A stretch of DNA of 20,564 nt from a virus, in the IMG/VR virus record IMGVR_UViG_3300044641_005765, positions 1 through 20,564 of that record; one strand, 5' to 3'. A program made the translations under genes and the position numbers. Below the pieces are notes generated by a model. It had not been told where the DNA came from. It ran no database searches and was given only the letters and a program-made list of their open reading frames with translations. Position 1 is the stretch's first letter, and the number at the start of each line of letters is the position of its first letter. Below, one piece after another: positions 174-20,523 of the stretch.

Positions 174-904
174 TTCTTTCCCTTTATTGCATGATATGTT
201 TTTATGTTACTAATTTTTTGTAAAGAATATTTATTATAAATACATTTAATTTTATATTTGATTTTAATAATTTCATTAATTGCTTCAAAGATAAATTTAT
301 TCTTGTTATCTGAACATGATATTATTTTTCTAAGCGTTTCTATTATGTCTTTATTATCAAGATATATCATTTCAGACCAAGTTTTACAAGCACCAAATGA
401 AAAATATTGAGCCTCATTATTTTCATCTATATTTATTCCTATTTCTAAATTTTCTGACGCTTGTGGCTCAACTAACACGCAAGTTTGATTTGTATTAAAA
501 AGAGATAATATTTTATCGTTAAATAATAAGTTGCCATCACATAATAATATTCTGTCATTAAATGTATTATTTAAAGATATTCTTACGCTTTCACATGAGT
601 TAGAAGAATTAAATAGTTGATTTTCCACTACCCTTATATTAAGATTGCTATATTTTTGTCTAATATATTTACATATCTTCTCAGCATCAAAGCCAACACA
701 TATAATAATTTCAAAATTACTAAATGTTTTTTGTATGGCTTGTATTTGTAAATCTATAAGTTTCTGGTTATTTATTGTTATTAAAGGCAATGGTCCGTAT
801 GACTTCATTCTATATCCCGGCGTATCACACAATATTATTACAGTTATTAATTCATTTGTAATCTTTATTGTTTTTTTTGCTTGTTGTACACATCTAGTTT
901 TCAT
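170..904 (-). CDS. Nucleotidyltransferase-like (sugar-phosphate NTP transferase fold) protein
   Basis: The protein has 244 residues from the ATG at 904; an upstream in-frame TTG at 919 has no usable ribosome binding site, whereas GAGA lies 9 bases before 904. Residues 20-52 (beta strand TVIIL, then a TPGYRMKSYGPLPL turn, then INNQKLIDLQIQAI) match the start of GlmU/RmlA-type NTP transferases: a glycine/arginine loop, a Pro-Leu segment, then a helix. A second strand ends in LLCDGN (about 121-125), where family members place their metal-binding Asp. The usual GxGxR signature is altered to TPGYR and the conserved lysine is not obvious, so catalysis is uncertain. It lies in the glycan block, overlaps the partial gene downstream (ATGA) and may supply or sense activated sugars. 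Confidence 0.6.
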   Translation of the reverse strand: MKTRCVQQAKKTIKITNELITVIILCDTPGYRMKSYGPLPLITINNQKLIDLQIQAIQKTFSNFEIIICVGFDAEKICKYIRQKYSNLNIRVVENQLFNSSNSCESVRISLNNTFNDRILLCDGNLLFNDKILSLFNTNQTCVLVEPQASENLEIGINIDENNEAQYFSFGACKTWSEMIYLDNKDIIETLRKIISCSDNKNKFIFEAINEIIKIKYKIKCIYNKYSLQKISNIKTYHAIKGKK

Positions 905-908
905 ATTA

Positions 909-1664
909 TCATATCTCAAGATATAATTGTAGTCTCTGAGCTTCTTTAATTAGTAAGTCAGTGCATTTACCATAATCATAGGCACACTCATCATAATTAT
1001 TTAAATAATTTATTCTGTACGCAATATTGGATATTATATTATTATTACTATTATGAGCAATTAAAAACTTTGCCAAATTATCATTTACTTTATCGTTGAG
1101 ACATTTTACAAAATTTGTTGCAGGAATATTTTCTTTATTTATAATGATATGACACATTGTTTTTTCCAAAGCAATAGTTTCATGTAAATATGTAGACCTA
1201 TTAATGTATTTTGTTATACTTACGTTGTATGAATTTTCAGACAACCACTTGTATATTTTTACTATATTTTTTATATTTATTTGATCTATATTGTATCTAC
1301 TAAATAATATTATTTTTATTTTAGATTTTATATAGTCTAAAGACTTGATATAATCTAATATATTATATGAATCATTTTCTGAAATATCGTCACAATCAAA
1401 AAGTAAAGTTATATCAATTGAGCTTTCACTTTTAACAAGATTAATATCAACTATCCCATTATTCCAAGTATTATTTCTATAATAGTTACAAAATGACTTT
1501 ACAATATAAAATTCTTTATCTTTATCATAAGCTTCAATAATTAAATCGCCAAACTTTTCTATTCTATTAACTAAACACCCAGTTTGTGTTTTATTATTAT
1601 AGACTGCAAATATACAATTTTTGCAACTAGTTTTTGCTGATTGGTCTTGTGGCAATGATTTCAT
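909..1664 (-). CDS. Cysteine-motif protein of unknown function in the glycan block
   Basis: The protein has 251 residues and I do not recognise a named family. The N-terminal 65 residues hold four cysteines (C14, C17, C30, C59: CxxC-x12-C-x28-C) within CKNCIFAVYNNKTQTGC and a later FCNYYR, which suggests a bound metal or iron-sulfur cluster. Residues about 78-170 alternate strands and helices (DITLLFDCDDIS, KIKIILFSRYN, YNVSITKYIN), like a Rossmann or GT-A-type fold with an acidic DCDD patch that could bind a metal. The start at 1664 has AAGGG eight bases upstream and overlaps the previous gene by 38 bases. Position among glycosyltransferases suggests a glycan role. A glycosyltransferase with an added zinc module is one reading, but this is not shown. 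Confidence 0.6.
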   Translation of the reverse strand: MKSLPQDQSAKTSCKNCIFAVYNNKTQTGCLVNRIEKFGDLIIEAYDKDKEFYIVKSFCNYYRNNTWNNGIVDINLVKSESSIDITLLFDCDDISENDSYNILDYIKSLDYIKSKIKIILFSRYNIDQINIKNIVKIYKWLSENSYNVSITKYINRSTYLHETIALEKTMCHIIINKENIPATNFVKCLNDKVNDNLAKFLIAHNSNNNIISNIAYRINYLNNYDECAYDYGKCTDLLIKEAQRLQLYLEI

Positions 1665-2055
1665 AACTATGTCCCTTAAATGTTAAACTATTTACTTCTA
1701 AGTTATAATGATTAAGAACTTCAATAATGTCTTTTGATCCATATACGCCTCTTTTTGAAAAAATTACATTATTAAAATCTTTAATATTCATTTGACCATC
1801 TAAAATCTGCTTACATAATATATTTGTTTCTACCCCACTAAGAACTAGCTCACAATTAAATCTCATCTTTTGACAAACTTGTTCTAAAAAATCTCCAAGC
1901 AAATTATATGGAATATTATCTAAAGCATTGATAGCAATAATTTGATCCGCACCATTATTTGGTATTTCGCTAAGATCTATTTTTCCATATAATATTGGTA
2001 TTGACTTGTAGCCTTCTATAAAATTATCGATTTTATCTGTTATATAAACTTTCAT
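1627..2055 (-). CDS. Degenerate SAM-methyltransferase-like protein
   Basis: The protein has 142 residues and starts with ATG overlapping the previous stop as ATGA. Residues 26-75 (KIDLSEIPNNGADQIIAINA, then helices, then FNCELVLSGVE) follow the second half of class I methyltransferases: the 'DL..LP' strand, the motif after the SAM site, and the strand ending in a 'LvlsvPd'-like turn. The first strand, which should end in a glycine-rich SAM loop, reads VYITDKIDNF and has no GxGxG. At 142 residues it is also shorter than most complete enzymes. I infer a methyltransferase-fold protein that may have lost catalysis or acts with a partner. It lies between a GT-B glycosyltransferase and the cysteine-motif protein. 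Confidence 0.5.
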   Translation of the reverse strand: MKVYITDKIDNFIEGYKSIPILYGKIDLSEIPNNGADQIIAINALDNIPYNLLGDFLEQVCQKMRFNCELVLSGVETNILCKQILDGQMNIKDFNNVIFSKRGVYGSKDIIEVLNHYNLEVNSLTFKGHSYEIIATRPISKN

Positions 2056-3050
2056 ATTCTGGATACCTCGTATGTAATATCAAAAACATTTTGCCAATTT
2101 TTAATAAAATTCTCTTCAGAAAACATTGTTAATATTGTTTGTCTAGCATTATTACCAATTTCTTGTCTTTTATTTTCATCATTTAATAGCATATTAATGT
2201 AATATTTTAATTCATTTTCATCATTAGAGATGTATCCATTTATTCCATTTTGAATGATATCTGGTATCATGCAAGTTGCCGTTGAAACTACGGCACAGCC
2301 ACAGGACATTGCTTCTAATAATGACATTGGTATGGGGCTAAGTGTTGAACTATTAAAATACACATGACACTTATTATATTCTTCTACTAAGTTTTCTATA
2401 GATTTAGCTGGACCATAATCCTCACTATTTTCACCAATTAATCTTATTTTAAAATCTTTTGTTACTCTAGACCAGCCACTATAATTTAAACAGTAATCAC
2501 GATTTTTAAAATCATTAGCAACTGTTAGAACGTGTTGCTCTTTATTTACGCTGAGTGGTTTAAATATGTTTGTATCCAACCCATGATGTATTATGTCTGC
2601 ATTATAGTTTATATCCCAAGCTTTTCTAGAATATTCAGATATGAATATATTAATATCACCAAGCATATTTTTCATCATATGAATATGTTCTTCTGGTATT
2701 GTTTGCGGTGTTGGTATAGTATGTTCTAAACAAATTATTGGTAGATGAACAACTTGGTTTATTTGTTGTGCAACTTGAAATTGCCAAAACTTACTTTGTA
2801 CTAATATGAAATCATAGTTTAAATATTCACAAGCTTGAGATTCTGGCAATATATAATAATTTGATGGAACTGCACATTGTTCTTTATTCCATTTTTTAAG
2901 ATTTGGGAGATGAAATGAATAAAAATCATGACCAGTTTTACAAAGTTGAGATTCATATCTTTCATGTGTTGGGAATGTTAATATACGATACTTCTCTGGC
3001 TTTTGTCTATTAGCAATATGTACTAATCTTTTAGTAGAATTATTAATCAT
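2052..3050 (-). CDS. GT-B glycosyltransferase (GT4-like)
   Basis: The protein has 332 residues. The carboxy-terminal half is GT4-like: a donor-domain strand HVLTVANDF (about 173-181), RLIGEN (203-208), then SPIPMSLLEAMSCGCAVVST (238-257), which is the nucleotide-sugar pocket motif, and a final ENFIKNWQNVF helix. The EX7E motif keeps its second Glu (E246), but the first position is Ser238, so activity or mechanism may be altered. The N-terminal half carries short Rossmann strands (YRILTFP, FILVQSKF, IICLEHT). No membrane segment or signal peptide is visible, so it acts in the cytoplasm. The ATG at 3050 overlaps the preceding glycosyltransferase by 8 bases without a clear ribosome binding site, suggesting coupled translation. 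The sugar and acceptor cannot be read from sequence. Confidence 0.85.
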   Translation of the reverse strand: MINNSTKRLVHIANRQKPEKYRILTFPTHERYESQLCKTGHDFYSFHLPNLKKWNKEQCAVPSNYYILPESQACEYLNYDFILVQSKFWQFQVAQQINQVVHLPIICLEHTIPTPQTIPEEHIHMMKNMLGDINIFISEYSRKAWDINYNADIIHHGLDTNIFKPLSVNKEQHVLTVANDFKNRDYCLNYSGWSRVTKDFKIRLIGENSEDYGPAKSIENLVEEYNKCHVYFNSSTLSPIPMSLLEAMSCGCAVVSTATCMIPDIIQNGINGYISNDENELKYYINMLLNDENKRQEIGNNARQTILTMFSEENFIKNWQNVFDITYEVSRI

Positions 3051-4164
3051 TCAATGTATCCTTTATAATTTTACCAATATTTTCATGTGAAAATTGTTCG
3101 GCATATTTTATTCCAATAGATCTATCAATGATATTTCTATTATCATAATAGTATCTCATAGCCTTTTTAATTTCTGATTCGTCTGGTTGAAACCACTCTT
3201 CTCTACCAGTAAATATGTGCGGAAAAGCTGGATCAGAGTGATTACAAATTGACTGTGAGCCATTAATCAACCATCCAGTTGCCTTGTTGTTTTTGTCAAT
3301 AAATTCTTTTGTTCCACCTTCATTGCTACAGATTGGCGTTTTTCCATAGCACATAGCTTCAAATGCTGGTATTGACCAGCCCTCTCCGTGAGATGGGCCA
3401 ACAAAACAATCGCAAGATTGATGCAGTGAGTGAATTTGATCAAATGTCATATCATTAGATATAACTATCTCTGAATGATAATCATTAATATTTGCATATA
3501 GTCTCATTTCTTTTTTTATTTGAGAACACATGTTATTTACATGTTTTGCCAAATCATTTGGATTAACTCCAGTTTTCTTAACCTTTAGAACTAAGCATAC
3601 TGGCTCATAATTATTAAATTCGGCATGAAAAGATCTTATAATAGATTCTATATTTTTTCTATCGTTCAATTCACCAACATAATAAAATTTAAACTTATGA
3701 TTGTTTGATCCAAAATTTAATCTTCCGAACGGGGTTTTGTACTTGTTAATATCAAATGCGTGTGGTATGACTTCTAATTTACTTTCTGATATTCCATCAT
3801 TAATAAGATTTGCTTTTAAGTCTGAATTTGGAACCCACACAAAGTCCATAGCATCAAGATAGTCTTTCCAAATATTATATTTTAATGTGTTGGACTCACC
3901 GGCGAAATAAGCAATATTCTTTTTAAACTTTTTGGTAGAAACTAAGTGGTGAGGAAGAACGTGCTGTATACAATAGTCAATATTGTCAAGATTATTTTTT
4001 TCTAAATTTAATATTCTTGTATCTATTTGTGATTCAGTATTTGTTAATTTTATATTTCTACAAGCAATATCAACATTATTACTAGCAATAGACAGTATAT
4101 TATTAATTGCAGCATTTGACCATCCACTTGCTTCTTTATAATGACCTATATATAAAACTTTCAT
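3043..4164 (-). CDS. GT-B glycosyltransferase (GT1/GT4 family)
   Basis: The protein has 373 residues from the ATG at 4164, which overlaps the previous stop as ATGA; the frame is open to 4218, but the extra 18 residues (QQKKLLGTKE...) are poor sequence and GGAGG sits 13 bases before 4164. It begins KVLYIGHYKEASGWSNAA, a typical GT-B first strand and acceptor loop. A linker VWVPNSDLKANLINDGI (109-125) and LEVIPHAFD (130-138) precede the donor domain FKFYYVGELNDRKNIESII. The EX7E motif is complete (E261, GWSIPAF, E269), followed by YGKTPICSNEGG. The enzyme should be an active retaining glycosyltransferase in the cytoplasm. Substrate is unknown. It belongs to a run of three GT-B genes. Confidence 0.9.
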   Translation of the reverse strand: MKVLYIGHYKEASGWSNAAINNILSIASNNVDIACRNIKLTNTESQIDTRILNLEKNNLDNIDYCIQHVLPHHLVSTKKFKKNIAYFAGESNTLKYNIWKDYLDAMDFVWVPNSDLKANLINDGISESKLEVIPHAFDINKYKTPFGRLNFGSNNHKFKFYYVGELNDRKNIESIIRSFHAEFNNYEPVCLVLKVKKTGVNPNDLAKHVNNMCSQIKKEMRLYANINDYHSEIVISNDMTFDQIHSLHQSCDCFVGPSHGEGWSIPAFEAMCYGKTPICSNEGGTKEFIDKNNKATGWLINGSQSICNHSDPAFPHIFTGREEWFQPDESEIKKAMRYYYDNRNIIDRSIGIKYAEQFSHENIGKIIKDTLND

Positions 4165-5822
4165 CTTATTTTTAATACCTCCGCTCTCTTTTGTTCCCAA
4201 TAGTTTCTTCTGTTGCATAGATTAATCATATTATCATATGCTATATCAAAATTAAACGGATTTCTAGATAAAACACCATCAAAAGCGGCAGAGCTTTCGT
4301 TAAAATACATACCACCAGTTACTGACGTTGTTGTTTTATAAGTTAAATCTCTAATGAGTCTAGCTTCTATAAAAGAATTAATTTTTTCTGGTTCACACAA
4401 AACATCTGTTATTAACCATCTGGCAATATCCTTAATTGGTGTATTTGGTGGTAAATTTTCTGGCTTTTGTTTTGGTGATCTAATTCTTGGCTTAGATTTC
4501 CATCCAATATCATCTGGAATTATATCAATACTATCAAAATAATTTTCCCAAGCTTTTCCACTTTTATCCCACTGATAATGATGTAAAAATAATTCTCTCG
4601 TTTCTTTAGATAATTTTAACCTTTGATCGCTTGTAAGATTAAAAAATTCTATTAATTTTGCTGCTGCTAATTTGTTATCTGGAACAGCCCTATAACATCC
4701 AGTTTCTAGTTCTTTGTATAAGGCTTTTGGCTTAATTGGTATTCCATTTAAATTTTTAATAACACTTTCCATCGCAGAATAATCTGTTGACATTACCGGA
4801 ATACCACAGGCGGCAGCTTCAACTTGAGGCAAACCAAACCCTTCGCAGTTCGCATATTGAACATATATATCAAAGAGATTTATAATATTTGATAGATCGT
4901 TATAGCTAGCACCCTTTTTAACATTTGAAAGAGTTGCACCGTACTGTTTCGTATATGGTGATTGAGTTATAGCACCACGAAATAATGATGGGAATGGTTT
5001 TCCAGTTTGACCACATATATAGGTAAATAATACTTTTGATGACAATTGATATTGTTGTAATAATTCTGGAATATCCCAACCTAAGTCTGGATAACTAGTA
5101 TGGCAGTATAGAAAATATTTAGAACTATCTTCTACAGTGTCTAGTAGCAATCTAAATGCTTCAAATAGATCTGGATATAATTTTCTTCTTTGATTTCTCA
5201 TTACTGTGCCAATTATTTTAGCATCTGGATCTATTCCCATAGTAATTCTATGTTCTTTTTTATTTTCAACTGGAGCATATGCTGCATGTGCTGATGGCGG
5301 TGATATTCCTATGTAGTTTATTTTTCCACCAGACTGCTGCTTTAATACTTCACCAGCCCATTCTGAATATGTTAAACAAGCATCAGCAGATTGATAAGTT
5401 GAAACCCATTGTCTTGCTTGCGGCCTAGCATCAACGGTTGGCATTATGCACCATTTATAAAACTGTCTAAATGGTGATCTTTCTTCAAAATCCAACATCC
5501 AAAAATCACGAATATCACACACAACATCTGGCATAAAATCTAAACACACGGATTCAAACATTAACTCTCCAAACGCGGCAGTTGGAACACTTGCATATTG
5601 TCTCTTTTCTTCTTCGCTTGCATTTTCACTTGGAACAACGCCATAAAATTTCCACGGTGTCCCATATGCCCTCTTATCATTTTTTTCTCCATAAGAAGCC
5701 ATTTCTGCTAATTCATATTTATTAGTACTATGTAAATAGTTTAATATTTCTCTTGTATATGTAGCATATCCAGTATTTAAGAAAGTTGCTTCACTGCAAA
5801 ACAATATGCGCTTTTTTCTCAT
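4161..5822 (-). CDS. GT-B glycosyltransferase with C-terminal extension
   Basis: The protein has 553 residues. I place the start at the ATG at 5822 (MRKKRILFCSEATF) rather than the TTG at 5831, because TTGAGGAT, the ribosome binding site, overlaps the TTG but is well spaced for the ATG. The N-domain opens with RILFCSEATFLNTGYATY, a GT-B acceptor loop. The donor domain carries IIGTVMRNQRRKLYPDLFEA (about 204-223) and the EX7E motif CEGFGLPQVEAAACGIPV (E327, E335). An unusually long loop of about 40 residues (about 268-308) precedes the motif. A final region of about 110 residues (about 440-553) is not part of the glycosyltransferase fold and is unrecognised. It follows ssb directly, so sugar and replication genes share a transcript here. 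Confidence 0.88.
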   Translation of the reverse strand: MRKKRILFCSEATFLNTGYATYTREILNYLHSTNKYELAEMASYGEKNDKRAYGTPWKFYGVVPSENASEEEKRQYASVPTAAFGELMFESVCLDFMPDVVCDIRDFWMLDFEERSPFRQFYKWCIMPTVDARPQARQWVSTYQSADACLTYSEWAGEVLKQQSGGKINYIGISPPSAHAAYAPVENKKEHRITMGIDPDAKIIGTVMRNQRRKLYPDLFEAFRLLLDTVEDSSKYFLYCHTSYPDLGWDIPELLQQYQLSSKVLFTYICGQTGKPFPSLFRGAITQSPYTKQYGATLSNVKKGASYNDLSNIINLFDIYVQYANCEGFGLPQVEAAACGIPVMSTDYSAMESVIKNLNGIPIKPKALYKELETGCYRAVPDNKLAAAKLIEFFNLTSDQRLKLSKETRELFLHHYQWDKSGKAWENYFDSIDIIPDDIGWKSKPRIRSPKQKPENLPPNTPIKDIARWLITDVLCEPEKINSFIEARLIRDLTYKTTTSVTGGMYFNESSAAFDGVLSRNPFNFDIAYDNMINLCNRRNYWEQKRAEVLKIR

Positions 5823-5827
5823 TATTA

Positions 5828-6139
5828 TCAATCCTCAAAATCTTGTTGACAGAAATCAAATTCGTTAATTCTAAATATAATGGAACTATTTTCTTTGGAC
5901 ACATTTCTTGCTGAAGCGTGAACATTTATTTTTGTTCCTTTGATAGCATATTTTTCTAGCGTTTCTGCACCAGTATGCCAAGCTTCGCACTGTAAATATG
6001 TTGGTATTCTACTTTTTTCTCCACTCTTAGTTTTTCTATAAGTGTAGACTACCATCACAAAATCTGCCTTTACAACATCGCCAACCATTGTTATTCTAGG
6101 ATTTTCAACTAGATAACCAGTAAATGAACATATATTCAT
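5828..6139 (-). CDS. ssb: Single-stranded DNA-binding protein
   Basis: The protein has 103 residues, about the size of the OB-fold core plus a very short tail. It starts MNICSFTGYLVENPRI, the SSB pattern of a first strand followed by 'G.L..dP', continues with VVKADFVMVVYT and YLQCEAWHTGAETLEKYAIKG (the conserved 'v.aWg..AE....yl.KG'), and ends in the acidic tail FDFCQQDFED. SSB coats single-stranded DNA at the fork and recruits partners through the acidic tail. Here the tail ends in Glu-Asp instead of the usual Pro-Phe and directly follows the fold, with little linker. A strong ribosome binding site (AAGGAG, six bases before ATG) precedes it. It lies between the DnaE C-half and a glycosyltransferase. 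Confidence 0.88.
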   Translation of the reverse strand: MNICSFTGYLVENPRITMVGDVVKADFVMVVYTYRKTKSGEKSRIPTYLQCEAWHTGAETLEKYAIKGTKINVHASARNVSKENSSIIFRINEFDFCQQDFED

Positions 6140-6190
6140 CCATATCTCCTTATCTTAATATATTAGCAGCTACAAAACAAAAAAACACAA
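6140..6190 (-). promoter_or_regulatory. Gap before ssb with strong ribosome binding site
   Basis: This 51-base gap holds AAGGAGA (6145-6151), a near-perfect ribosome binding site for ssb. Upstream of it lie a T-rich stretch and TAATAT/TAAGAT hexamers that could serve as weak -10 elements, but no good -35 is seen. The gap gives ssb independent translation. A separate promoter is possible but weakly supported. Confidence 0.35.
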
Positions 6191-7768
6191 TCAAATTTCA
6201 TGAATCTTGTTTACAATAAAAGAATTATCGTGTTCGCTAATAGATCCACAAAAAATTAAATTATTACCTTCATATAAGACATACTTATATTTATCTTTTA
6301 CTTTTGGAAAAATAATAACACTATCAAGAACGCATGTATCATCTTCTATTGTTAGAAATGACATTGTTTGTCCTTTAGATTCACCCTTTGTTATTTTATA
6401 GTCTGAAACTCTTTGAACATTTGCTACAATACATAAATCTTTACCCCTTTTTCCATTAACAACTTCTTTGCACGTTGTATTTGCGGCAGATGTATCAGAC
6501 GTTTCAACTCTTGTCATACTAACTGGACAACCTAAGAATTTTACTTCTTGATCTATAATCCAACTAACATCATCTTGAAGGTCATATGGAGGATTAATAA
6601 GTAGTTGTATTTCATTTTCTATCACTTGTTTTCTATCTGTTTTACTTGTGCCGCCACCCTCTTTTTTAGTTGGTGCTAAATCTTTCAAGCAGTCTACAAA
6701 AGTTAACCATTTTCTAGTTTGATAGTTTGAGTGTAGCCAAACTTGTTCTGATTTGGTAAGCACTCTATATATATCATAATCATAAAGAGCCTTATTTCTG
6801 GTTATTGTGTCTGCAAAATCTCTAAAAAATCCAATAGACGCTAATGCCTTAAATGCTGCTGAATTTACTTTTGGGCTAAGATATAATAATATTTCCACCC
6901 AATTACATTTATTTATATCTTTACCTAATTCTGATTCAACTTCTTTTATAGCCTCTATTAATTTATCGCCAGTTTTACCAGTTAAACACTTAATGTCCTT
7001 AATACCAAAATATATTTTACCATTCTTAAAGTTAAACTTATCGCTATAATTAGCTAATGATGGAGTTTTAGCCTGTATATCAAATAACTTAGCCTCTGAA
7101 ATTAATTCATAAGTTTCTTGTTGAGGATCTTGCTTTTCTGACGCATGGTACAAATATGATAAGAAAAAATCTTTTGTGTTATGCGCTTTAAAATAAGCAC
7201 TCCAATATGAACAGGCGGCATATGAAACACTGTGAGATTTATTAAAAGCATATCTAGCAGATTTTTCTATCCAGCCAAAGATTTGTTCAGCTTCATCTTT
7301 TGTAACAAGATTAACCTTACTGGCACCCTCTATAAATGATTTTTTAACTTCATTCATTAGGGCAGCATTTTTCTTTCCAATGGCCTTACGGAGAACGTCA
7401 GCCTCCTGTAAATTGAATCCTGCTATCTTCTGTGCTATACGCATGGATTGTTCTTGGTAGACCAGAATACCATAGGTTGGCTTTAAAATTTCTTCTAACG
7501 CTTGATGCAAATATGTTACTTCCTCCCTACCATGCTTTCTGTCAACATAGTGCTGTGTCATGCTTTTCCCATCAACAAAAGCTTTCAAAGTTCCCGGCCT
7601 AATAATGGCAATTAAGGCAGACAATTCTTCAAGATTAATAGGTGCTAATTTCTTTGACCAAGATTTACCAAGATTACTTTCTAGCTGAAAGATTCCTTTA
7701 GTCTTTCCTTCCGCAAATAGTTTCCAAGTCTTATCACAGTTATAATCTATAATAAAATTATTTAACAT
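6191..7768 (-). CDS. dnaE (C-half): DNA polymerase III alpha, C-terminal half (fingers to OB fold)
   Basis: From the ATG at 7768 the protein has 525 residues. Starts at TTG 7798 or ATG 7780 are possible, but GGTGG five bases before 7768 favours that ATG. It picks up DnaE where the upstream half stops: LLxxGKTxGIFQLES (FQLES 27-31), RPGTLK, then YGILVYQEQSM (99-109), ADVLRKAIGKK (123-133) and FNKSHSVSYA (175-184), all fingers-domain landmarks. An OB fold occupies about 444-525. It contains none of the catalytic aspartates, which are in the other half, so it must assemble with that protein to make a polymerase. Combined length is about 1,061 residues against about 1,160 for bacterial DnaE. It overlaps the exonuclease gene by 11 bases, so translation is probably coupled. 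Confidence 0.93.
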   Translation of the reverse strand: MLNNFIIDYNCDKTWKLFAEGKTKGIFQLESNLGKSWSKKLAPINLEELSALIAIIRPGTLKAFVDGKSMTQHYVDRKHGREEVTYLHQALEEILKPTYGILVYQEQSMRIAQKIAGFNLQEADVLRKAIGKKNAALMNEVKKSFIEGASKVNLVTKDEAEQIFGWIEKSARYAFNKSHSVSYAACSYWSAYFKAHNTKDFFLSYLYHASEKQDPQQETYELISEAKLFDIQAKTPSLANYSDKFNFKNGKIYFGIKDIKCLTGKTGDKLIEAIKEVESELGKDINKCNWVEILLYLSPKVNSAAFKALASIGFFRDFADTITRNKALYDYDIYRVLTKSEQVWLHSNYQTRKWLTFVDCLKDLAPTKKEGGGTSKTDRKQVIENEIQLLINPPYDLQDDVSWIIDQEVKFLGCPVSMTRVETSDTSAANTTCKEVVNGKRGKDLCIVANVQRVSDYKITKGESKGQTMSFLTIEDDTCVLDSVIIFPKVKDKYKYVLYEGNNLIFCGSISEHDNSFIVNKIHEI

Positions 7769-8438: not shown

Positions 8439-10041
8439 GTATAGTTTCCTTATTTTGTATAAACATTAATTTATCTAAAAGCGATAGGCCCAATACGTCA
8501 AATTTAACATGACCTAAACTTTCAAGATCTGACATTTCTAGTCCAGCAATTTTTTCAGATGAGTCACGCTGACTAACCATCGGGCATACATCTTTTAGTT
8601 TGTGTTTTGATATAACCACGCCAGCAGCATGTTTTCCCTGTGTTTTAAACGTTCCTTCAATCTTAATTGCTTGATCAAAATATTCAGCATAATCACCCTC
8701 AAGTTTTCCATCATTATTAATATGGCAAAAATCTCTTAATTCATTAGGATTATTGATTAACGCCCACCTAATAATAGATCTATTATCATCATCCATATCT
8801 GCTAGCTGGTCAGATATTTCTGCTTCATTGGGTATATTCTTTGTTATAGTATTCATTTCACCAAAAGAACACGCCTCGTTAATACGCAAAACTTCTTTTA
8901 TAGCACTTCTACCTTGAAGTCTACCAAATGTAATCATTTGACTAACATGATCATGACCATATTTATTCTTTATATATAACAAAACATCATCACGCCTTTT
9001 TGCTGGAACGTCCATATCAATATCTGGCAATGATATGTGGTCAGCACTATTTCGACCAGCATTATAAAATCTTGAAAATAGTAAATCAAATTCTAATGGG
9101 TCAATTTTTGTGATACCAATTAAATAAGAAATCAAACAGCCAGCAGCCGAACCTCTGCCGGGACCAGAAAGCCACCCTTGATCATTTACATATTTGATGA
9201 TATCTTGTACAATAAGAAAATATCCAAACAAATTAGCATCTTTAATCACATTGAATTCTTCATCAAAACGTTCAGCATATTTTTGCTTATCTTCTGGCTT
9301 TGATACTTTGCCAGATTGAATTAATAAATTCTTCCAACCATCCCTACAAAGTTGTTTTAAATATTCTTCTTCTGACTCTCCATTTGGGCAAGGAAATTTT
9401 GGTAAAACTGGCTTGCTTAATATATCATATTCTTCACAAGAATCTATGATATTATTTACGTATTTTAAATCATCTATAGATGAATTTTTACTAATCTCTT
9501 CAACCTTATCTTTAGACCAAACACACAGGTCATTATTAAGAAATTGATACTCTAATTCTTTAGATAGTTCGCCCTTTTGTATTTGCTTATTAATTTTAGG
9601 TAGAGTAGTTTTTAGCTCTGAACATAGTAATACTCTATGTAGTGTAGCATCATCCGAATTCACATAATAGCTTACTGGTATTAATTTTATATTATTATTA
9701 ACACTAATCAAGTTATCCTTGGCTAAAATATTATTCCATATATCATTAGATATATTTCCATCGTTATTTATGGATGACACTAGCTTAATTAAGTCGTGCC
9801 AGCCTTTATTATTTTTAGCAAATAATGTGCAATTATCAAACGAGCATCCAATAATTGGCTTTATGCCATGTTTTTTACAAGCTTTATAGAATGAAACAAC
9901 GCCAGATATTGTTTTATAGTCTGCTATACCGCAAGCAACATAACCATTTTGCTTACATTTTAAAGCTAATTCTTCTGGCTTAGAAAAGCCTTTCAGCAAG
10001 CTATAATGAGTATAATTTTTTAATGGACACCAATTCAACAT
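8431..10041 (-). CDS. dnaE (N-half): DNA polymerase III alpha, N-terminal half (PHP and palm)
   Basis: The protein has 536 residues. The PHP domain (1-about 210) opens THYSLLKGFSKPEELA and has GIADYKTISGVV, where active PHP enzymes carry His residues (HxH; DH), so its metal site looks degenerate. The palm contains GPGRGSAAG (293-301), PDIDMD with catalytic D340 and D342, GRLQGRSAIKEVLRI, KHAAGVVIS (470-478) and the third catalytic Asp, D515, in VKFDVLGL. It ends 21 residues after D515, just before the fingers domain, which is encoded separately 660 bases further on. All three catalytic aspartates are here, whereas nucleotide-binding fingers are not. GAGG precedes the ATG, immediately downstream of a terminator hairpin. 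Confidence 0.94.
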   Translation of the reverse strand: MLNWCPLKNYTHYSLLKGFSKPEELALKCKQNGYVACGIADYKTISGVVSFYKACKKHGIKPIIGCSFDNCTLFAKNNKGWHDLIKLVSSINNDGNISNDIWNNILAKDNLISVNNNIKLIPVSYYVNSDDATLHRVLLCSELKTTLPKINKQIQKGELSKELEYQFLNNDLCVWSKDKVEEISKNSSIDDLKYVNNIIDSCEEYDILSKPVLPKFPCPNGESEEEYLKQLCRDGWKNLLIQSGKVSKPEDKQKYAERFDEEFNVIKDANLFGYFLIVQDIIKYVNDQGWLSGPGRGSAAGCLISYLIGITKIDPLEFDLLFSRFYNAGRNSADHISLPDIDMDVPAKRRDDVLLYIKNKYGHDHVSQMITFGRLQGRSAIKEVLRINEACSFGEMNTITKNIPNEAEISDQLADMDDDNRSIIRWALINNPNELRDFCHINNDGKLEGDYAEYFDQAIKIEGTFKTQGKHAAGVVISKHKLKDVCPMVSQRDSSEKIAGLEMSDLESLGHVKFDVLGLSLLDKLMFIQNKETIHG

Positions 10042-10050
10042 ATAACCTCA

Positions 10051-10081: not shown

Positions 10082-10101
10082 CAAACAAAAAACAAAAATA
10101 A

Positions 10102-10392
10102 TTATTCTTCACGAACTAATTGAATATTTAATCCCGGCACAGATGGGGCAATTGTATCATTGGCTACGAATTCAATAACCGCTGGTTCGCTAACATTTCC
10201 AGCATCATCAACATCAACTAATGATACAGTAACATTGTCACCTTGAGCAAATGTTCTTTCTCCCAATACCGTGACAGTATTTGAGTAACTATCTGTAGCA
10301 ACTACATTACCATTTACTGTTACAGTTAATCTACGCTCTACAACATCAAGGTCTGTTGGGGCCGAACATGTTAATTCATACACTAAACCCAT
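10102..10392 (-). CDS. Small Ig-like/fibronectin-type protein, probable virion surface protein
   Basis: From the ATG at 10392 the protein has 96 residues and starts MGLVYELTCSAPTDLDVV. AAAGGAG six bases upstream is an excellent ribosome binding site, which fixes this start. The sequence is beta-rich with alternating Val/Thr (RRLTVTVNGN, NVTVSLVDVDDAGNVSEPA), a pattern common in Ig-like or fibronectin-like domains that decorate phage capsids and tails. No catalytic motif is present. The frame stays open upstream to a GTG at 10542, adding a 50-residue hydrophobic leader; see the separate entry. A strong terminator follows, consistent with a highly expressed late gene. Function is inferred from composition and context only. 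Confidence 0.7.
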   Translation of the reverse strand: MGLVYELTCSAPTDLDVVERRLTVTVNGNVVATDSYSNTVTVLGERTFAQGDNVTVSLVDVDDAGNVSEPAVIEFVANDTIAPSVPGLNIQLVREE

Positions 10393-10554
10393 GTTAATCT
10401 CCTTTGTAATAAATTTATATCTTATATACCGTGGACGTAATTCTAATCTATATCTTTTTTTTGCTAAGAAAAAAGAGTAAACAACAATACAATTTTGTAA
10501 TATGACCAAAAATAGAACAAAAAATAAAAAGAAACTTTTCACAATATTACCTCG
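10393..10554 (-). promoter_or_regulatory. Largest intergenic gap; candidate promoter and ribosome binding site for Ig-like gene
   Basis: The gap before the Ig-like gene holds AAAGGAG (10399-10405) and, just upstream, TATAAATT (10412-10419), one base off the T4-type late promoter core TATAAATA. An alternative sigma70-like reading is TTACGT with 17 bases to TAAATT. The gap is also open in the Ig-like frame from GTG 10542, encoding a hydrophobic 50-residue leader (KSFFLFFVLFLVILQNCIVV) with GAGG before it. I favour a non-coding promoter region, but an anchored longer form is possible. In so AT-rich a sequence the promoter match alone is weak. Confidence 0.35.
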
Positions 10555-11416: not shown

Positions 11417-12411
11417 GATTTACAAGCCCAATATCTAGCTTTCCATTTTGGGCCGGGATTATCACAGTTATGCCTAGCCCTAAAGCTTTTTCTACGTTCT
11501 GGTATATTTTTCTTTATTGTCATATTCGGATCACCAAATCTGACTATAACAACATTTCCACTTTCATTTTTTGTATAAACAGCAAACTTTTTTGGACCAT
11601 TAGAAGTTCTAAATGGTTTATTTAAAGTTACTTTTCTACCTTGATACTCAGCGGCTTTACCAACATATACTAGCTTGTTGCCATTCTTTTCATAGATTCC
11701 CTGCCTGTTATATGTATATATTTCTCCACTTTCTGGATCTTTATATTCATATTTCTTACCTTCTGTTTCTTCCATTTTCATTTCTGAAGGTTCTTCTTCT
11801 GTATATTCATCTTCATATTTTCCCGGCTCGTAATATTTAACAAAGTCATAAACATTTTGCACATATATTTCTGCCTTTGATATCATATCCTTTGTCCAAT
11901 CTTGAAACTCTACTGGAATAGACATAACTTTTAGTTTTGTAACTATTTCCATAAGTTGGTCATGCATTTTTTGTATCTGTTCTAATGCCATCTCATCACC
12001 GCTGTCAGATTGTGCCTTTTTCCAAGATTCTTTATTTGGCCTATCTGGATCTCCCGGTTTGGCTGGCTTATAGTTTTTACCCATTCTTTCTTTCTTTTTT
12101 CTAATGTTTTCCCAAAGGCCGGGTTTTTCTGCTGCAATATCCCACTCCTGTGTTTCCTCTCCAAAATCTTCGTATTCACCTTCTGCTGGAATATAAAAAT
12201 TCTCTTCTGTTAATTCTTCTACATATCCAGCTTCAGCTTGTAATGAATAATCTGCCGCTTCCACACAGTCACAGTCTGCCGTTGCTTGCTGTATACAAAT
12301 AGCAACTCTTTGTTGCTGATCTGGATAATCCTTTTTCATGATCTCATTACTCATACAGCGTGACACGAACGAGTCTTTTTCTTCGTCTTTTCTTCTATTT
12401 GGAATTGGCAT
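11410..12411 (-). CDS. Mosaic phage protein, probable virion/prohead-associated
   Basis: The protein has 333 residues built from separate conserved blocks joined by acidic, low-complexity linkers. Block 1 (1-43) is IPNRRKDEEKDSFVSRCMSN and following, with DYPDQQQRVAICI. Block 2 (97-133) is GLWENIRKKKERMGKNYKP and a Pro/Lys-rich stretch. Block 3 (274-333) is FAVYTKN...VRFGDPNMTIKKN, then FRARHNCDNPGPKWKARYWA and a terminal KSW. I recall similar blocks, singly or together, in proteins of uncultured and T4-like marine phages, often near head genes; that is memory, not a search. Conserved Cys and Trp in block 3 suggest a compact fold. The start follows a good ribosome binding site (GGAGA). No enzyme motif is visible. 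Four of the twelve CCSGG Pro-Gly sites lie here. Confidence 0.7.
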   Translation of the reverse strand: MPIPNRRKDEEKDSFVSRCMSNEIMKKDYPDQQQRVAICIQQATADCDCVEAADYSLQAEAGYVEELTEENFYIPAEGEYEDFGEETQEWDIAAEKPGLWENIRKKKERMGKNYKPAKPGDPDRPNKESWKKAQSDSGDEMALEQIQKMHDQLMEIVTKLKVMSIPVEFQDWTKDMISKAEIYVQNVYDFVKYYEPGKYEDEYTEEEPSEMKMEETEGKKYEYKDPESGEIYTYNRQGIYEKNGNKLVYVGKAAEYQGRKVTLNKPFRTSNGPKKFAVYTKNESGNVVIVRFGDPNMTIKKNIPERRKSFRARHNCDNPGPKWKARYWACKSW

Positions 12412-12421
12412 AATTAATCTC

Positions 12422-13282
12422 CTAATTTAGTATTAAATTCTTAGCGTTATTAAATATTATATCTATACTTCCTTGTGGTATTTTGTTTTTAAAATATTCA
12501 TATATATCTATAATCATTTGGTGGTTTGGATCTTTTGTAATTTCTAGCCAGCCAATGAAATAATTCCAAATTCTATCTTCTAATATTAATGGATATTTTA
12601 CCCCGCTTGGTCTTCCAAATCTATGGTTCCATTTAAGAGAAGGCAAACAAATATTTCTACCGCCATTTTTTCTAAACTTTTCTGCTATATAACCTTCTTC
12701 TCCACCAAAACCCCTAAATGATGGATTAATTCCCATCCAAGCAGATTTTTCAAAAGCACATAAGCCCATTCCTTGCATTGGTATATCAAATGGTTCGCCA
12801 TCGCCAGATTCATATAGTTCACTATTAGTAGCCCATACACCATACATATCTCCGCTCCACCTTGGATCAAAATGTGTAGATACGTTATTTAAATCATCAT
12901 ATAATAATGGTCCTTGAACTAGATTTTTACAGTCGGGATTATTGTTAAAATAAGTAATTAAATTAGCAATACCATCTCTTTGTATTAAAACATGGCAATC
13001 TATAATTAATACGTATTTTCCATCAGAATAATCAACTATTTTATATTTATTGAATGAGCTTGGTTTTTCACCATATTCTATATACTTCATATTACTTTGA
13101 CCACTTACAAACATTTTGCATTCTTGTCCGTAAATGCTAGTTGGATTATTATCTAATACAATAAATTCAACATAGTCAGTATTACATAGCTGGTGATACA
13201 TTCTCAAGGCTTGTATAGAGAAAAATACCCCATCATAATCATCATAGGTAGACATACCTATTGTTAACAATTTTTTATGCAT
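12422..13282 (-). CDS. GT-A glycosyltransferase (GT2/GT27-like)
   Basis: The protein has 286 residues. It opens LLTIGMSTYDDYDGVFFSIQ, a GT2-type first strand, and has VEFIVLDNN (38-46) and YVLIIDCHVLI (90-100), where D95-C-H97 stands in for the DxD metal motif. The second half, GMGLCAFEKSAWMGIN then FGGEEGYIAEKF with NGGRNICLP and KWNHRFGRP, follows the pattern of polypeptide GalNAc-transferases (GT27): a DxH metal motif, 'GM.FAI', 'WGGEN.E...R.W..GG' and a C-terminal H. It lacks their lectin domain and membrane anchor. A cytoplasmic sugar transferase is well supported; donor and acceptor are not known. It stands apart from the glycosyltransferase cluster at the other end of the window. Confidence 0.88.
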   Translation of the reverse strand: MHKKLLTIGMSTYDDYDGVFFSIQALRMYHQLCNTDYVEFIVLDNNPTSIYGQECKMFVSGQSNMKYIEYGEKPSSFNKYKIVDYSDGKYVLIIDCHVLIQRDGIANLITYFNNNPDCKNLVQGPLLYDDLNNVSTHFDPRWSGDMYGVWATNSELYESGDGEPFDIPMQGMGLCAFEKSAWMGINPSFRGFGGEEGYIAEKFRKNGGRNICLPSLKWNHRFGRPSGVKYPLILEDRIWNYFIGWLEITKDPNHQMIIDIYEYFKNKIPQGSIDIIFNNAKNLILN

Positions 13283-13294
13283 ATTTTATCCGTA

Positions 13295-14314
13295 TTAACC
13301 GGGACTAGCGTAAAATCCTATCTGGAAACCTTCTTTTGTACACTCTTTAATGGTGTGGTCCATACCATTGTTTTTGAGGTTATTCTCTATATATATACAC
13401 ATGTTTTGATCTGTTCCCGGCCACTTAGTCTTACAATAATGACATAATTTGGCACATTTCCAGTTATCTCTATTTTGAGATATAGGCTGTGGCTTGGCAT
13501 TATTTTTAATATCTTCAAACTTGTTTTTAAGCATTTTTAGGAACTTTTTTTCATCATCTTTATCAAAACACATAGAAAATGGGCCACCGTCTTTGATAAA
13601 AAAGATAGACATAATTGACTGCTTGTACTGGGGGAATAGCTTAGATATTGCATAATTATATAGCAATAACTGCGGATCAGAACATAGTTTTTCATATGTT
13701 TTTTCTTCGCCAGTAGCCCAATCTAATCTTCTGCCGGTTTTCCAATCTATAACTTCTATTATTCCATCAGATGACTCTGTTACCAAGTCAATAGTACCCT
13801 TGATTGCTAGTTGTCCCTTAATCTTTTGACCATTTACTTCGTATTCAAAAAAAGCCCAATCTTCCTCTATTGGTATGTCAAAATGTGGTTCGGCTTCTAC
13901 TATTTTCCTATATCTTGGATCAAATTGACCATCGTTGTAATTTAGGGTATCCGAAATTAACTTATGACAATTATCATTATCTCCCTTGGTGAAACTGTGT
14001 TTTGAGTCTACTGTATAAAATTTAAAACTTAGTTTTAATATGTCATCCACAGTATCTTTACTAAAGAGTTCTGATTTTTTAATATTTATTTTACCCAAAG
14101 CGTCATCTTCTATGGATAAAGTATTCTTTTTAGGATTATCTTGAGTGTACTTTTTAAGTTTAGCTAAAATTTCTAGAACTTTATGAACAATTGTGCCAAG
14201 TTCTGCCTTTTTCCCGCTATCTGGTTGATGCCCCAAAACATAAGTTATAAAATATTGCATCTGGCAATAAGCATAATTATTATAACTAGAAGATCTTATA
14301 TAAGTTATTAGCAT
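13295..14314 (-). CDS. RecB/Cas4-like PD-(D/E)XK nuclease with cysteine cluster
   Basis: The protein has 339 residues from the ATG at 14314 (TAATG junction with the kinase gene); a TTG four codons earlier lies inside the ribosome binding site TTGGAG and is rejected. Nuclease motifs are H44 (GTIVHKVLE), D176 (GTIDLV), the ExDxK-like EVIDWKTGR (E187, D190, K192) and QLLLYNYA (215-222). Cysteines C17, C291, C294 and C306 are arranged as in Cas4/AddB enzymes, where an early Cys and three late ones hold a 4Fe-4S cluster; C287 is extra. Such nucleases resect DNA ends for recombination. No helicase domain is present. Its place after recA, helicase, primase and kinase genes supports a recombination or replication role. 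Confidence 0.88.
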   Translation of the reverse strand: MLITYIRSSSYNNYAYCQMQYFITYVLGHQPDSGKKAELGTIVHKVLEILAKLKKYTQDNPKKNTLSIEDDALGKINIKKSELFSKDTVDDILKLSFKFYTVDSKHSFTKGDNDNCHKLISDTLNYNDGQFDPRYRKIVEAEPHFDIPIEEDWAFFEYEVNGQKIKGQLAIKGTIDLVTESSDGIIEVIDWKTGRRLDWATGEEKTYEKLCSDPQLLLYNYAISKLFPQYKQSIMSIFFIKDGGPFSMCFDKDDEKKFLKMLKNKFEDIKNNAKPQPISQNRDNWKCAKLCHYCKTKWPGTDQNMCIYIENNLKNNGMDHTIKECTKEGFQIGFYASPG

Positions 14315-15054
14315 TATATGCTCCAAATTGTGTTATTTGATTTCAACTTTTCACATAGCTCTTCAATAGTTAAGTTAGAATTATCTATAACAATATCAAA
14401 ATTTGACCAATCAAAATAGTCTTTATCTAATGCAACCTCTGCTTCTGCGTCACTATCAAAAACATTTCTGGTTAATCTAATTACTATTCCGCCAGCCTTA
14501 TGAATAGCTTCAACCTCATTGGGAAATCTAACATCTGGTAGGATCGCTAAGGACGGTTCCTCTAAAATAATCTTTTTGATTGAATATAAAGCCCAAGCAT
14601 CATCTTTAATTTTTCTAATTATCTTAGTTCCAAAGTGTTCTAGAAATTCTCTAACAGTAGGGTTTCCACTCTTTTTAGTTCCGCTTGGTATATTTTTCCA
14701 CTCTAAAGATGTTGGTTTATTTTTATCGTCATTAGACCCATATACATCATGTTGGCTTATACCAAATAGATTAATAGCCATTTCTTTAAGTGGATCTGCA
14801 AAATGATACACTTTAATATAAGGCCATAATTCTTTGCTGGCATATTCTATAAATACTTTATCTTTTCTAGTAACATCTAGTTCACCATATCCGCTATCGC
14901 CGTTAGAGTCTACCGTCTGAACTATAAGTTTACCATTCTCATCTATATAAAAATCACTAACCATATTCATGTTTTTTAAAACATAGCCATTAATATAGTT
15001 AGCTACTGTATTTTTACCAGACTGTTTTTTGCCAGCTATTCCAATAATTTTCAT
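14314..15054 (-). CDS. Deoxynucleoside monophosphate kinase (T4 gp1-like)
   Basis: The protein has 246 residues and phosphorylates dNMPs to dNDPs for DNA synthesis. It starts MKIIGIAGKKQSGKNTVANY with a Walker A loop (GKKQSGKNT, 8-16). Phage dNMP kinase landmarks follow: VYHFADPLKEMA (82-93), PTVREFLEHFGTKIIR (132-147), LAILPDVRFPNEVEAI (169-184) and VIRLTRN. It resembles T4 gene 1 protein and carries an insertion of about 45 residues after the first helix (about 26-75). The ATG overlaps the primase stop (ATGA), with GGGGATGG upstream. It is in the replication operon between primase and nuclease, so its product is made together with the fork proteins. Confidence 0.9.
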   Translation of the reverse strand: MKIIGIAGKKQSGKNTVANYINGYVLKNMNMVSDFYIDENGKLIVQTVDSNGDSGYGELDVTRKDKVFIEYASKELWPYIKVYHFADPLKEMAINLFGISQHDVYGSNDDKNKPTSLEWKNIPSGTKKSGNPTVREFLEHFGTKIIRKIKDDAWALYSIKKIILEEPSLAILPDVRFPNEVEAIHKAGGIVIRLTRNVFDSDAEAEVALDKDYFDWSNFDIVIDNSNLTIEELCEKLKSNNTIWSI

Positions 15055-17511: not shown

Positions 17512-17512
17512 A

Positions 17513-17935: not shown

Positions 17936-18408
17936 TGTCTTTTCCCCTTTTCTAACAGTATATCGGCCTTGCGTTTTAATTCATATACTTTTCCATCTAA
18001 AGATTGCAGTCTAGCTTCCGCTACCTCTCTCATGTTTTCTAAAGATGCCGCATAAGAATTACTTTGTGATAATATATGTTTTTTAGATTCGTGCTTAGTA
18101 TATTGACCAAACTCATCACTATATTTAACAATCAATTTTTCCATTTGATCATTACACCAATTTAATGCAACTTTATTTTTATTAATTTCATCTTGAATAT
18201 ATGTTGCGTATCCATATATTAGATATGCCGCATCAAATAATTCTTGCTGATTATACTTTTTTAATTGATCTAAAGATAAATCAGAAACTAATAAATATTC
18301 TTCTCTAAAAGAAGCAAATTTAGTATTACTAGAGTTAATATAATCATTTATAGATGATATATAATCAGCTAGTTTTTCAGACGCTTTTAATTCTTTTTCG
18401 CCACTCAT
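17932..18408 (-). CDS. Helical protein of unknown function, possible recombination mediator
   Basis: The protein has 158 residues from the ATG at 18408; a GTG two codons earlier is possible. It is almost entirely helical with no enzyme motif. Charged heptad-like stretches occur at about 1-35 and from about 105 to 158 (SLENMREVAEARLQSLDGKV, YELKRKADILLEKG). The middle, DAAYLIYGYATYIQDEINKN, looks amphipathic. Size, helical content and place between recA and helicase genes recall T4 UvsY, the mediator that loads UvsX on SSB-coated DNA, but I see no sequence match that proves it. It overlaps the endonuclease gene by 32 bases and the zinc-ribbon gene by 4, so these three products are probably made in step. 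Confidence 0.65.
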   Translation of the reverse strand: MSGEKELKASEKLADYISSINDYINSSNTKFASFREEYLLVSDLSLDQLKKYNQQELFDAAYLIYGYATYIQDEINKNKVALNWCNDQMEKLIVKYSDEFGQYTKHESKKHILSQSNSYAASLENMREVAEARLQSLDGKVYELKRKADILLEKGKRQ

Positions 18409-18799
18409 CGTCACTTTCTGAATATTTTAGGGTTATCAATTCGATTCCATTCAACTCACACCAGCTTATCTTATCATCGTCACGAACTTGTCCTTTTATG
18501 AAGTCTGCTTTGCTTCTATGAAAGAATGGATTGTACTCATAGTGCTGCTCTCCATGAACCTCAACTCCTAGTTTAATAGAAGGAATGTAAAAGTCAAGGT
18601 ATAGCACAGATTTTCTGTGCAAGGCTGTACTTCCCGGCAACTTTACTTCTTCTAATATTCTATAACTATTGTAGATTTCTTTTAGTAAGTTTCTAGCCCG
18701 TACATGATATTTAGATCGCTTACGCTTGTCATCATCAAAAACATCATATCCTGTTAGATTCCATGTGTATTCTTTGCCATTTATTCCAGTGATTTTCAT
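18377..18799 (-). CDS. Vsr-like / EDxHD-type endonuclease
   Basis: The protein has 140 residues. The core LYLDFYIPSIKLGVEVHGEQHY (D69, E80, H82, H86) followed by QVRDDDKISWCELNGIELITL matches small PD-(D/E)XK-type nucleases of the Vsr and EDxHD homing groups: an Asp, then Glu-x-His(Gly), then a basic or acidic helix with D..K..W...G. A basic N-terminal region (KRKRSKYHVRARNLL, 25-39) could bind DNA. Family members nick mismatched or specific DNA, or act as free-standing homing enzymes. In this place, between recombinase and helicase genes, a junction- or end-processing role is equally likely. The start overlaps the FkbM stop as ATGA. Confidence 0.78.
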   Translation of the reverse strand: MKITGINGKEYTWNLTGYDVFDDDKRKRSKYHVRARNLLKEIYNSYRILEEVKLPGSTALHRKSVLYLDFYIPSIKLGVEVHGEQHYEYNPFFHRSKADFIKGQVRDDDKISWCELNGIELITLKYSESDDEWRKRIKSV

Positions 18800-19404
18800 A
18801 AATTATTTTTAGCGTAAAATGCGTCACCCCAAGTTGTCCCAGCCATATTAGTTTCTAGTCTGTTAAATCCAAAATCTCTTAAAAAAGCGTCAACCTCATG
18901 TAACTTTGCACAGTCTGTATATACGTTATCAATATTGACTTCGGATATTATGTAATCAATATGATTTAATGTCTTCGTAGCACCTTTAAGTACTTCAAGT
19001 TCATAACCTTGAACATCCATATTAATAAGATTGAACTTATCAGTTTCATATGAGTCTAGCGTTGTAACATCAATCTCTTCTTTACCTTCAAATATAATAT
19101 TTGGATATTGCTGCAAATGTAATTCTGGTTCTAATATTGAATTTGATTGACCTAAATTTGCAGTTTCTATGTTCATAAAAGCAGTTCCATGATAGTTCCC
19201 TAAAGCTTTATTGATACATAATTCTTTTGGAACTCTAGATACCAATTGCTGAAAATTAGATTTTGCCGGTTCAAAAAAAAGCATTTCATTAATTTGTAAA
19301 GATTTATATAAATCATACTCTTCTCCAAAATGTGCGCCAATATGCACAACTCCAGAAATTTTAAGATCATATTTTTTTACTAAACTGTGTAAATTTAATA
19401 ACAT
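18796..19404 (-). CDS. FkbM-family methyltransferase
   Basis: The protein has 202 residues. Class I methyltransferase motifs are GVVHIGAHFGEEY (18-30, the SAM loop), LFFEPAKSNFQQL (42-54, with acidic E45), then VTTLDSY (113-119) and INMDVQGYELEVLKGA (127-142), the diagnostic FkbM 'D.(E/Q)G.E..vL.G' segment. The family methylates oxygen on sugars or natural products, and phage copies usually lie near glycosyltransferases. Here it is instead placed between recA and the endonuclease. Its ribosome binding site, AAAGGAGGT (19414-19422), is made from the last codons of recA. Substrate is unknown. Confidence 0.9.
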   Translation of the reverse strand: MLLNLHSLVKKYDLKISGVVHIGAHFGEEYDLYKSLQINEMLFFEPAKSNFQQLVSRVPKELCINKALGNYHGTAFMNIETANLGQSNSILEPELHLQQYPNIIFEGKEEIDVTTLDSYETDKFNLINMDVQGYELEVLKGATKTLNHIDYIISEVNIDNVYTDCAKLHEVDAFLRDFGFNRLETNMAGTTWGDAFYAKNNL

Positions 19405-19410
19405 ATAACA

Positions 19411-20523
19411 TTAACCTCCTTTGTTTAGCTCTTTGATTTTATGATAAATGAATGTAGAAATTGAATTATTACTATTTAAAAATTCAGCTACATTGTTTAC
19501 GCCTTGAAACTTAAAAAATCTTTCTATTTCATCTGGAGTCTTTCCTATTTTATTTTCTTCTAGCACTTTGGAAACAATAGGATTTTCTGGCTCATCTACC
19601 GCACATTGTATAGTATACCAAGCACCAGCGGCTTTAATTAATCTAAACTCACAAGCTATTTGTATAACTTCTTGTATTTCATCTACCCCAATACCATATC
19701 TAATCCAACCTTCCGCTGTACTATTAGGTCTACCGCCAGCATTAGAAGTTTTAATAGACCAATTTGCAATTTGACCAACGTGTTGACCAGTATCCTTTGG
19801 TACTTGCCATTTTCCTCTATGGGTAATAACCATATTAGTTCCAGCTTGATATTGCAACATGTTACCACAGTCTGCCATTTTTTGTGGGGCATATGGAGAA
19901 CCGCCGGTATTAGCTATATTATGTGTTATACAAATGAGGATAGTTTTATTTTTCATTAGTGTGCCACTAATACGCTTAAAAAACATTGATAATAGTCTTG
20001 GTAAAGCGTTTCTAACACCAGTTCTAACTTCGCCCTCAAGTTCAACGGCTGGAACCATGTTAGATAATGAGTCAGCAATTATTAAACAGCCGGGATCATT
20101 ATTGATATAGTATTCAGTAATATTTAAAAAGTCTTCTGCCGAAAGAACTCTCTCATCTGTTGATTCTATTATAATAATATTATCAGAGCTTAAATCCTTA
20201 ATGCCATCAAAGTTTTGTTTGGATAATCTGCCTTCAGTATTAATATAAATAACTCTTTTATTCTTTTTCTGACACTTAGCGGCAAAGTGTAAAGCTGTGG
20301 TTGTTTTACCACTTTTTGGATCACCTGTCATAACAACAACAGAGCCTTCCCTTAAGCCGCCGCCAAGGGCTATATCTAAAGCTGGAGAAATACTAATAAC
20401 ATTAAGATTATTGATATTCTGTAAAACTTCAGTACCACTTCTTACTACATCTCCATATTTGCTAACCACAGAATTACTAACTTCATCTTCGCTAAATTTA
20501 TTAGCCTTCTTGACTTTGCTCAT
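19411..20523 (-). CDS. RecA/UvsX-like recombinase
   Basis: The protein has 370 residues. After a charged 30-residue N-terminus, the ATPase core opens ISISPALDIALGGGLREGSV, with Walker A GDPKSGKTT (67-75), catalytic Glu97 (YINTEG), Walker B CLIIADS (146-152) and the loop-2 region ICITHNIANTGG followed by an ADCGNMLQY stretch. The C-terminal 100 residues are less conserved and may bind DNA or partners. The order of motifs fits the UvsX/RecA group of phages; the short N-terminus and lack of RadA-type zinc finger argue against RadA. It forms filaments on single-stranded DNA for strand exchange. GAGG lies five bases before the ATG, and a TATAAT lies about 36 bases upstream. Confidence 0.92.
   Translation of the reverse strand: MSKVKKANKFSEDEVSNSVVSKYGDVVRSGTEVLQNINNLNVISISPALDIALGGGLREGSVVVMTGDPKSGKTTTALHFAAKCQKKNKRVIYINTEGRLSKQNFDGIKDLSSDNIIIIESTDERVLSAEDFLNITEYYINNDPGCLIIADSLSNMVPAVELEGEVRTGVRNALPRLLSMFFKRISGTLMKNKTILICITHNIANTGGSPYAPQKMADCGNMLQYQAGTNMVITHRGKWQVPKDTGQHVGQIANWSIKTSNAGGRPNSTAEGWIRYGIGVDEIQEVIQIACEFRLIKAAGAWYTIQCAVDEPENPIVSKVLEENKIGKTPDEIERFFKFQGVNNVAEFLNSNNSISTFIYHKIKELNKGG

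Follow-up and report, generated by a model that had tools for sequence, protein, structure and literature searches.

An uncultivated phage family nearly devoid of CCWGG sites, a pattern best explained by host Type II restriction

The stretch of DNA analyzed here (the window) is the 20,564-bp phage record IMGVR_UViG_3300044641_005765 of IMG/VR, which holds only these 20.6 kb. It raises the question of why the word CCWGG (CCAGG or CCTGG) is missing from it and how far this absence extends in related genomes. In our judgement, selection by an orthodox Type II restriction enzyme of the host is the best explanation of the loss and quite probably the correct one. Word counts written as a/b are observed/expected.

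CCWGG is absent from the window

Neither CCAGG nor CCTGG occurs in the 20,564 bp, as the original prediction had stated from a reading of the sequence, and its estimate of about seven expected sites with independent bases also holds (7.3 at 30% G+C and 7.8 at the actual base composition). First-order and maximal-order Markov models gave expectations of 11.3 and 6.4, respectively. When the synonymous codons of the window genes were permuted, 14.0 ± 2.3 CCWGG sites were expected and none of the 2,000 permutations reached zero; the original prediction had understated the effect. The same permutation gave an expectation of 3.0 CCSGG sites, compared with 12 observed. Every one of these 12 is an in-frame Pro-Gly pair, and they are spread over eight predicted genes, with 7 CCG and 5 CCC proline codons. 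Prolines not followed by Gly are mostly CCA (163) or CCT (34), with 10 CCC and 14 CCG, and the use of CCC or CCG at 12 of 12 prolines before Gly versus 24 of the 221 others is highly significant (Fisher P = 3e-11). The RecA-like gene has CCC at its Pro-Gly and CCA or CCT at all 11 remaining prolines. The codon usage described in the original prediction was thus confirmed throughout. The CCSGG sites are as follows.

816..820, CCCGG, Pro-Gly CCG-GGA, gene 170-919 (-)
7593..7597, CCCGG, Pro-Gly CCG-GGA, DNA polymerase III alpha C-part gene 6191-7798 (-)
9158..9162, CCGGG, Pro-Gly CCC-GGC, DNA polymerase III alpha N-part gene 8431-10041 (-)
10133..10137, CCCGG, Pro-Gly CCG-GGA, gene 10102-10542 (-)
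11453..11457, CCGGG, Pro-Gly CCC-GGC, gene 11410-12411 (-)
11822..11826, CCCGG, Pro-Gly CCG-GGA, gene 11410-12411 (-)
12053..12057, CCCGG, Pro-Gly CCG-GGA, gene 11410-12411 (-)
12119..12123, CCGGG, Pro-Gly CCC-GGC, gene 11410-12411 (-)
13299..13303, CCGGG, Pro-Gly CCC-GGT, PD-(D/E)XK gene 13295-14326 (-)
13416..13420, CCCGG, Pro-Gly CCG-GGA, PD-(D/E)XK gene 13295-14326 (-)
18633..18637, CCCGG, Pro-Gly CCG-GGA, Vsr-fold nuclease gene 18377-18799 (-)
20090..20094, CCGGG, Pro-Gly CCC-GGC, RecA/UvsX-like gene 19411-20523 (-)

Because CCWGG had been picked after the sequence was read, it was compared with every other canonical five-letter word. It had the lowest observed/expected ratio of all 512 in the window and also in eight large relatives (G001, G002, G004, G005, G017, G019, G020, and G023). 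It was level at zero with GCGC-containing words in G045 and second lowest in the weakly avoiding G039. When only palindromes were considered, in the window alone and with the maximal-order Markov model, CCWGG came second and GCGC first.

The loss extends through the phage family and acts on DNA

The RecA-like, DnaB, and DNA polymerase III proteins of the window had only distant matches (<60% identity) among 50,697 phage records, and the replication genes are tailed-phage-like. Searches with the window DnaB and polymerase proteins retrieved many related viral contigs, most of which have zero or one CCWGG per locus, and in relatives of 36 to 159 kb the word is not at normal levels elsewhere in the genome either. 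When genes of 300 bp or more were counted in ten large contigs (987 kb), 8 CCWGG sites were observed versus 697 expected, and the counts in codon frames 0, 1, and 2 were 5/395, 2/137, and 1/164, respectively. The control word GGWCC occurred 532 times in all frames versus 672 expected (0.79), and CCSGG was raised (547 versus ~207 expected). Since CCWGG is nearly missing in all three codon frames, the effect acts on DNA and not on codon pairs.

Some gene arrangements of the window were also noted. DNA polymerase III alpha is split over two genes within 6191-10041, one for a PHP/nucleoside triphosphatase part (8431-10041) and one for a finger part (6191-7798), and a gene for a DnaQ-like exonuclease (7758-8438) separates them. 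Four glycosyltransferase-like genes lie within 2052-5831 and 12422-13282.

CCWGG returns to chance level in some branches

Six contigs from the L085/L089 and L079 groups have CCWGG at the level expected by chance (96 versus 93 expected), and in frame 0 these branches write Pro-Gly as CCW-GG (75 observed versus 69 expected). Some other contigs are intermediate. On the DnaB tree, the near-none and present states, set by fixed density cutoffs for loci of 8 kb or more, need at least eight changes. The direction of change was read from aligned orthologous genes, tallied per site and contig, so that related contigs are counted repeatedly. No CCWGG position of a non-avoider was kept as CCWGG in any avoider comparison; 746 were CCSGG, 77 were CTWGG or CCWAG, and the remainder had changed in other ways. 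Between non-avoiding clades, by comparison, 96 CCWGG sites were kept (53 identical and 43 with the other W) versus 15 W-to-S changes, and the control word GGWCC mostly persisted when non-avoiders were compared with avoiders (479 kept and 151 W-to-S changes).

A switch from CCWGG to CCSGG avoidance was considered for L085 (17 versus 0) and L089 (18 versus 0), where the raw counts are suggestive, and was rejected. We read these branches as CCWGG normal because the CCSGG deficit relative to codon-based expectations is small in number (3 versus 14 expected in the six contigs) and is accompanied by low CCGG. When larger non-avoiding contigs were sought starting from L085, L085 and L089 themselves were the only ones retrieved.

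CCWGG is one of many purged sites

CCWGG is just one of many sites that have been purged, a point that the original prediction missed. The window also lacks CTGCAG, CCATGG, GGTACC, GWGCWC, GRGCYC, and RGCGCY, and 31 of the 64 six-base palindromes are absent from it. In twelve pooled contigs, GAGCTC (0/96), GTGCAC (0/62), CTCGAG (0/49), and GTCGAC (0/56) are missing, and CTGCAG (1/222), TCCGGA (1/118), GCATGC (1/81), GGTACC (4/129), and CCATGG (17/169) are strongly reduced. The degenerate sites GWGCWC (0/30, 0/39, 0/38, and 0/37) and GRGCYC (0/13 to 0/26) are empty in most lineages. Other losses are lineage specific, namely, those of RGATCY in G004 (1/124), GGYRCC in G001 (0/40), and GRCGYC in G023 (0/29); G045 (L243 and L244), with 45% G+C, is without CCWGG and GCGC (0/72) and has nearly lost GGWCC (2/48). 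The depleted set consists of palindromic Type II-like sites, degenerate ones included, together with some non-palindromic words. In addition, TCGA is at ~0.2 to 0.65 of its expectation in the window and in all relatives, whether they avoid CCWGG or not.

Selection by host restriction

We propose that orthodox Type II restriction enzymes are, or repeatedly were, present in the hosts of this phage family. One that cuts CCWGG would be so widely shared among them that phages with any CCWGG site are lost, and synonymous changes, chiefly third-position W-to-S changes in Pro-Gly codons, would have removed nearly all sites. Further palindromes may have been removed by other enzymes in individual lineages, and where the pressure ended, perhaps through a change of host, CCWGG would have returned to chance level. 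The near-absence of the word, its basis in DNA, its breadth, its reversals, and the direction of the changes are all direct observations. In the phages, searches for DNA methylases gave no match to PF00145 (C5) among 38 records and none to PF01555 (N6/N4) or PF02086 (D12) among 20. Of the two processes named in the original prediction, selection and mutation away from methylated sites, the former is upheld by the loss in all frames, across genomes and across the family, by the reversions, and by the other palindromes, while the latter does not agree with the replacements seen in the orthologues.

Several points weigh against host restriction. Both the host and its CCWGG-cutting enzyme are inferred. 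The avoiding relatives are diverged and come from many metagenomes, so that the enzyme would have to be very widespread. The non-palindromic words CCTGA, ACCTG, and CTCGA are at ~0.1 to 0.35 of expectation in several lineages without explanation, and a few six-letter words that are not palindromes are near zero; CAGCTC and CCAGTC are among the strongly low ones. Strongly low non-palindromic words were found in G001, G004, G005, G019, and G039 (L104-L111, L124-L137, L144-L148, and L230-L236); some belong to degenerate sites, such as AGATCC in RGATCY, and the rest are unexplained.

If host restriction is the cause, the genomes of this family are a record of the restriction enzymes in their hosts, with one near-universal site, shared ones, lineage-specific ones, and returning sites. 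Host assignment and the tempo at which restriction pressure is gained and lost would become testable from sequence, and pairs of relatives differing in a single avoided site would be at hand. Our literature search found no paper using site avoidance to predict the hosts of uncultivated phages.

Host leads

Among cellular records, relatives of DnaB were found in only two contigs (L250 and L251), which are binned in a SAR202 cluster metagenome-assembled genome (MAG), and among 301 genomes from its phylum none besides this MAG was found to hold one. The binning provides a weak lead to a Chloroflexota host. The specificities of Herpetosiphon enzymes, which we assumed to be a further hint of Chloroflexota, were not backed by any paper that we found. 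L250 and L251 have no CCWGG or CTGCAG in the stretch examined.

Transfer-messenger RNA (tmRNA) genes are present in G001 (L104:4157-4507, minus strand, tag GETRFALAA) and G004 (L124:9723-10080, plus strand, tag GETQLALAA), both of which also encode transfer RNAs. A Bacteroidota host, considered on the resemblance of the tmRNA tags, was rejected, as Shine-Dalgarno sequences are enriched in the phages and the Bacteroidota promoter pattern is not clearly in excess.

Alternative explanations

The alternative that survives best is a nuclease of the phage itself, encoded without a methylase, that cuts CCWGG in host DNA, the phage genome having been purged for self-immunity. The span of the avoidance over the whole family would fit such an enzyme, and two nuclease-like proteins are candidates:

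18377-18799 of the window (-), nuclease-like protein of 140 amino acids with a predicted Vsr/I-Bth0305I-like fold
L109:8431-9198 (-), second nuclease-like protein, 255 amino acids, with weak DUF559 and homing-endonuclease matches

The AlphaFold model of the 140-amino-acid protein has a predicted local distance difference test (pLDDT) score of 92, and the PDB contains no protein clearly related to it in sequence. Its VIA-align Z scores of 9.6 to Vsr (1cw0), 9.4 to I-Bth0305I, and 9.8 to 3hrl indicate that a Vsr fold, in common with the EDxHD nucleases E. coli Vsr and I-Bth0305I, is probably present, and they are too similar to single out Vsr itself. Vsr acts at mismatches derived from CCWGG. 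However, the window protein is conserved irrespective of avoidance: its identity to the proteins of the non-avoiders L074, G026, and L079 is 80%, 79%, and 70%, respectively, and that to the avoider G045 is 59%. Since it is conserved in non-avoiders, it is unlikely to be tied to the avoidance, and we largely reject it as the cause. Of the 21 large avoiding contigs, 19 carry the gene for the 255-amino-acid protein; this gene is rejected as well, as it also occurs in the weakly avoiding G039, G041, and G042. Furthermore, one nuclease would not account for the dozen other palindromes that have been lost in particular lineages, and no EcoRII-C domain was found in 20 phage records, whereas the identical search matched 8 of the 301 genomes of the SAR202 MAG's phylum. 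We therefore consider a phage nuclease improbable. The same low probability applies to an intrinsic pressure on CCWGG, in which an unrecognized phage nuclease specific for CCWGG would destroy host DNA and would have been lost or changed where the word returns.

Mutational loss, in which a Dcm-like methylase of the host would promote deamination and thereby erode CCWGG to CTWGG or CCWAG, is very improbable. In avoiders, these products are slightly more frequent than the maximal-order model predicts (519/473 in G001, for example), but they are far outnumbered by CCSGG as the replacement in the orthologues, Pro-Gly is retained, and CCSGG is raised in the ten contigs. Deamination of the methylated second C leaves the center letter, which is not the methylated base, unchanged, and mutational loss thus fails to explain the pattern.

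A translational or codon-pair bias against CCA-GG and CCU-GG in Pro-Gly, unrelated to DNA, could be read from the window alone, where every CCSGG is an in-frame Pro-Gly. Such a bias without any link to CCWGG, which the original prediction had named as a finding that would overturn it, is contradicted by the near-absence in frames 1 and 2, which are as empty as frame 0, and the branches with normal CCWGG do use CCW-GG for Pro-Gly; we give it almost no weight. Equally negligible is chance, composition, or a general CCTG/CAGG shortage: CCTG-containing words are generally at 0.2 to 0.4 in many lineages, but a factor of ~0.3 cannot yield 0/98, 0/74, and 0/80, and G025/26 are low in CCTGA (7/40) with normal CCWGG (36/27).

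Comparison with known systems

Loss of restriction sites is a known strategy of phage evasion; this uncultivated family is notable for how complete and how broad the loss is and for its reversions. Phage T7, used as a yardstick, likewise has many sites absent or nearly so (CCWGG 2/52, GATC 5/118, CTGCAG 0/12, and AAGCTT 0/15). However, T7 is one 40-kb phage, whereas the contigs studied here reach 159 kb and represent many lineages with differing sets of sites. The first 50 kb of T4, which has modified cytosines, showed no avoidance (CCWGG 25/29), and the null model alone therefore does not generate avoidance.

Complete or almost complete elimination of sites, mostly those of orthodox Type II systems, has been reported for about one-tenth of viral genomes, and no elimination was detected in phages with hydroxymethylated cytosine (Rusinov et al. 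2018, PMC6286503). The phages described here resemble those double-stranded DNA phages in that palindromic Type II sites have been lost almost completely, a loss from which phages with modified cytosine are exempt. Whereas the hosts in that study are known, the family described here is uncultivated and its host enzymes are putative; its genomes combine one near-universal avoided site with lineage-specific sets and reversions.

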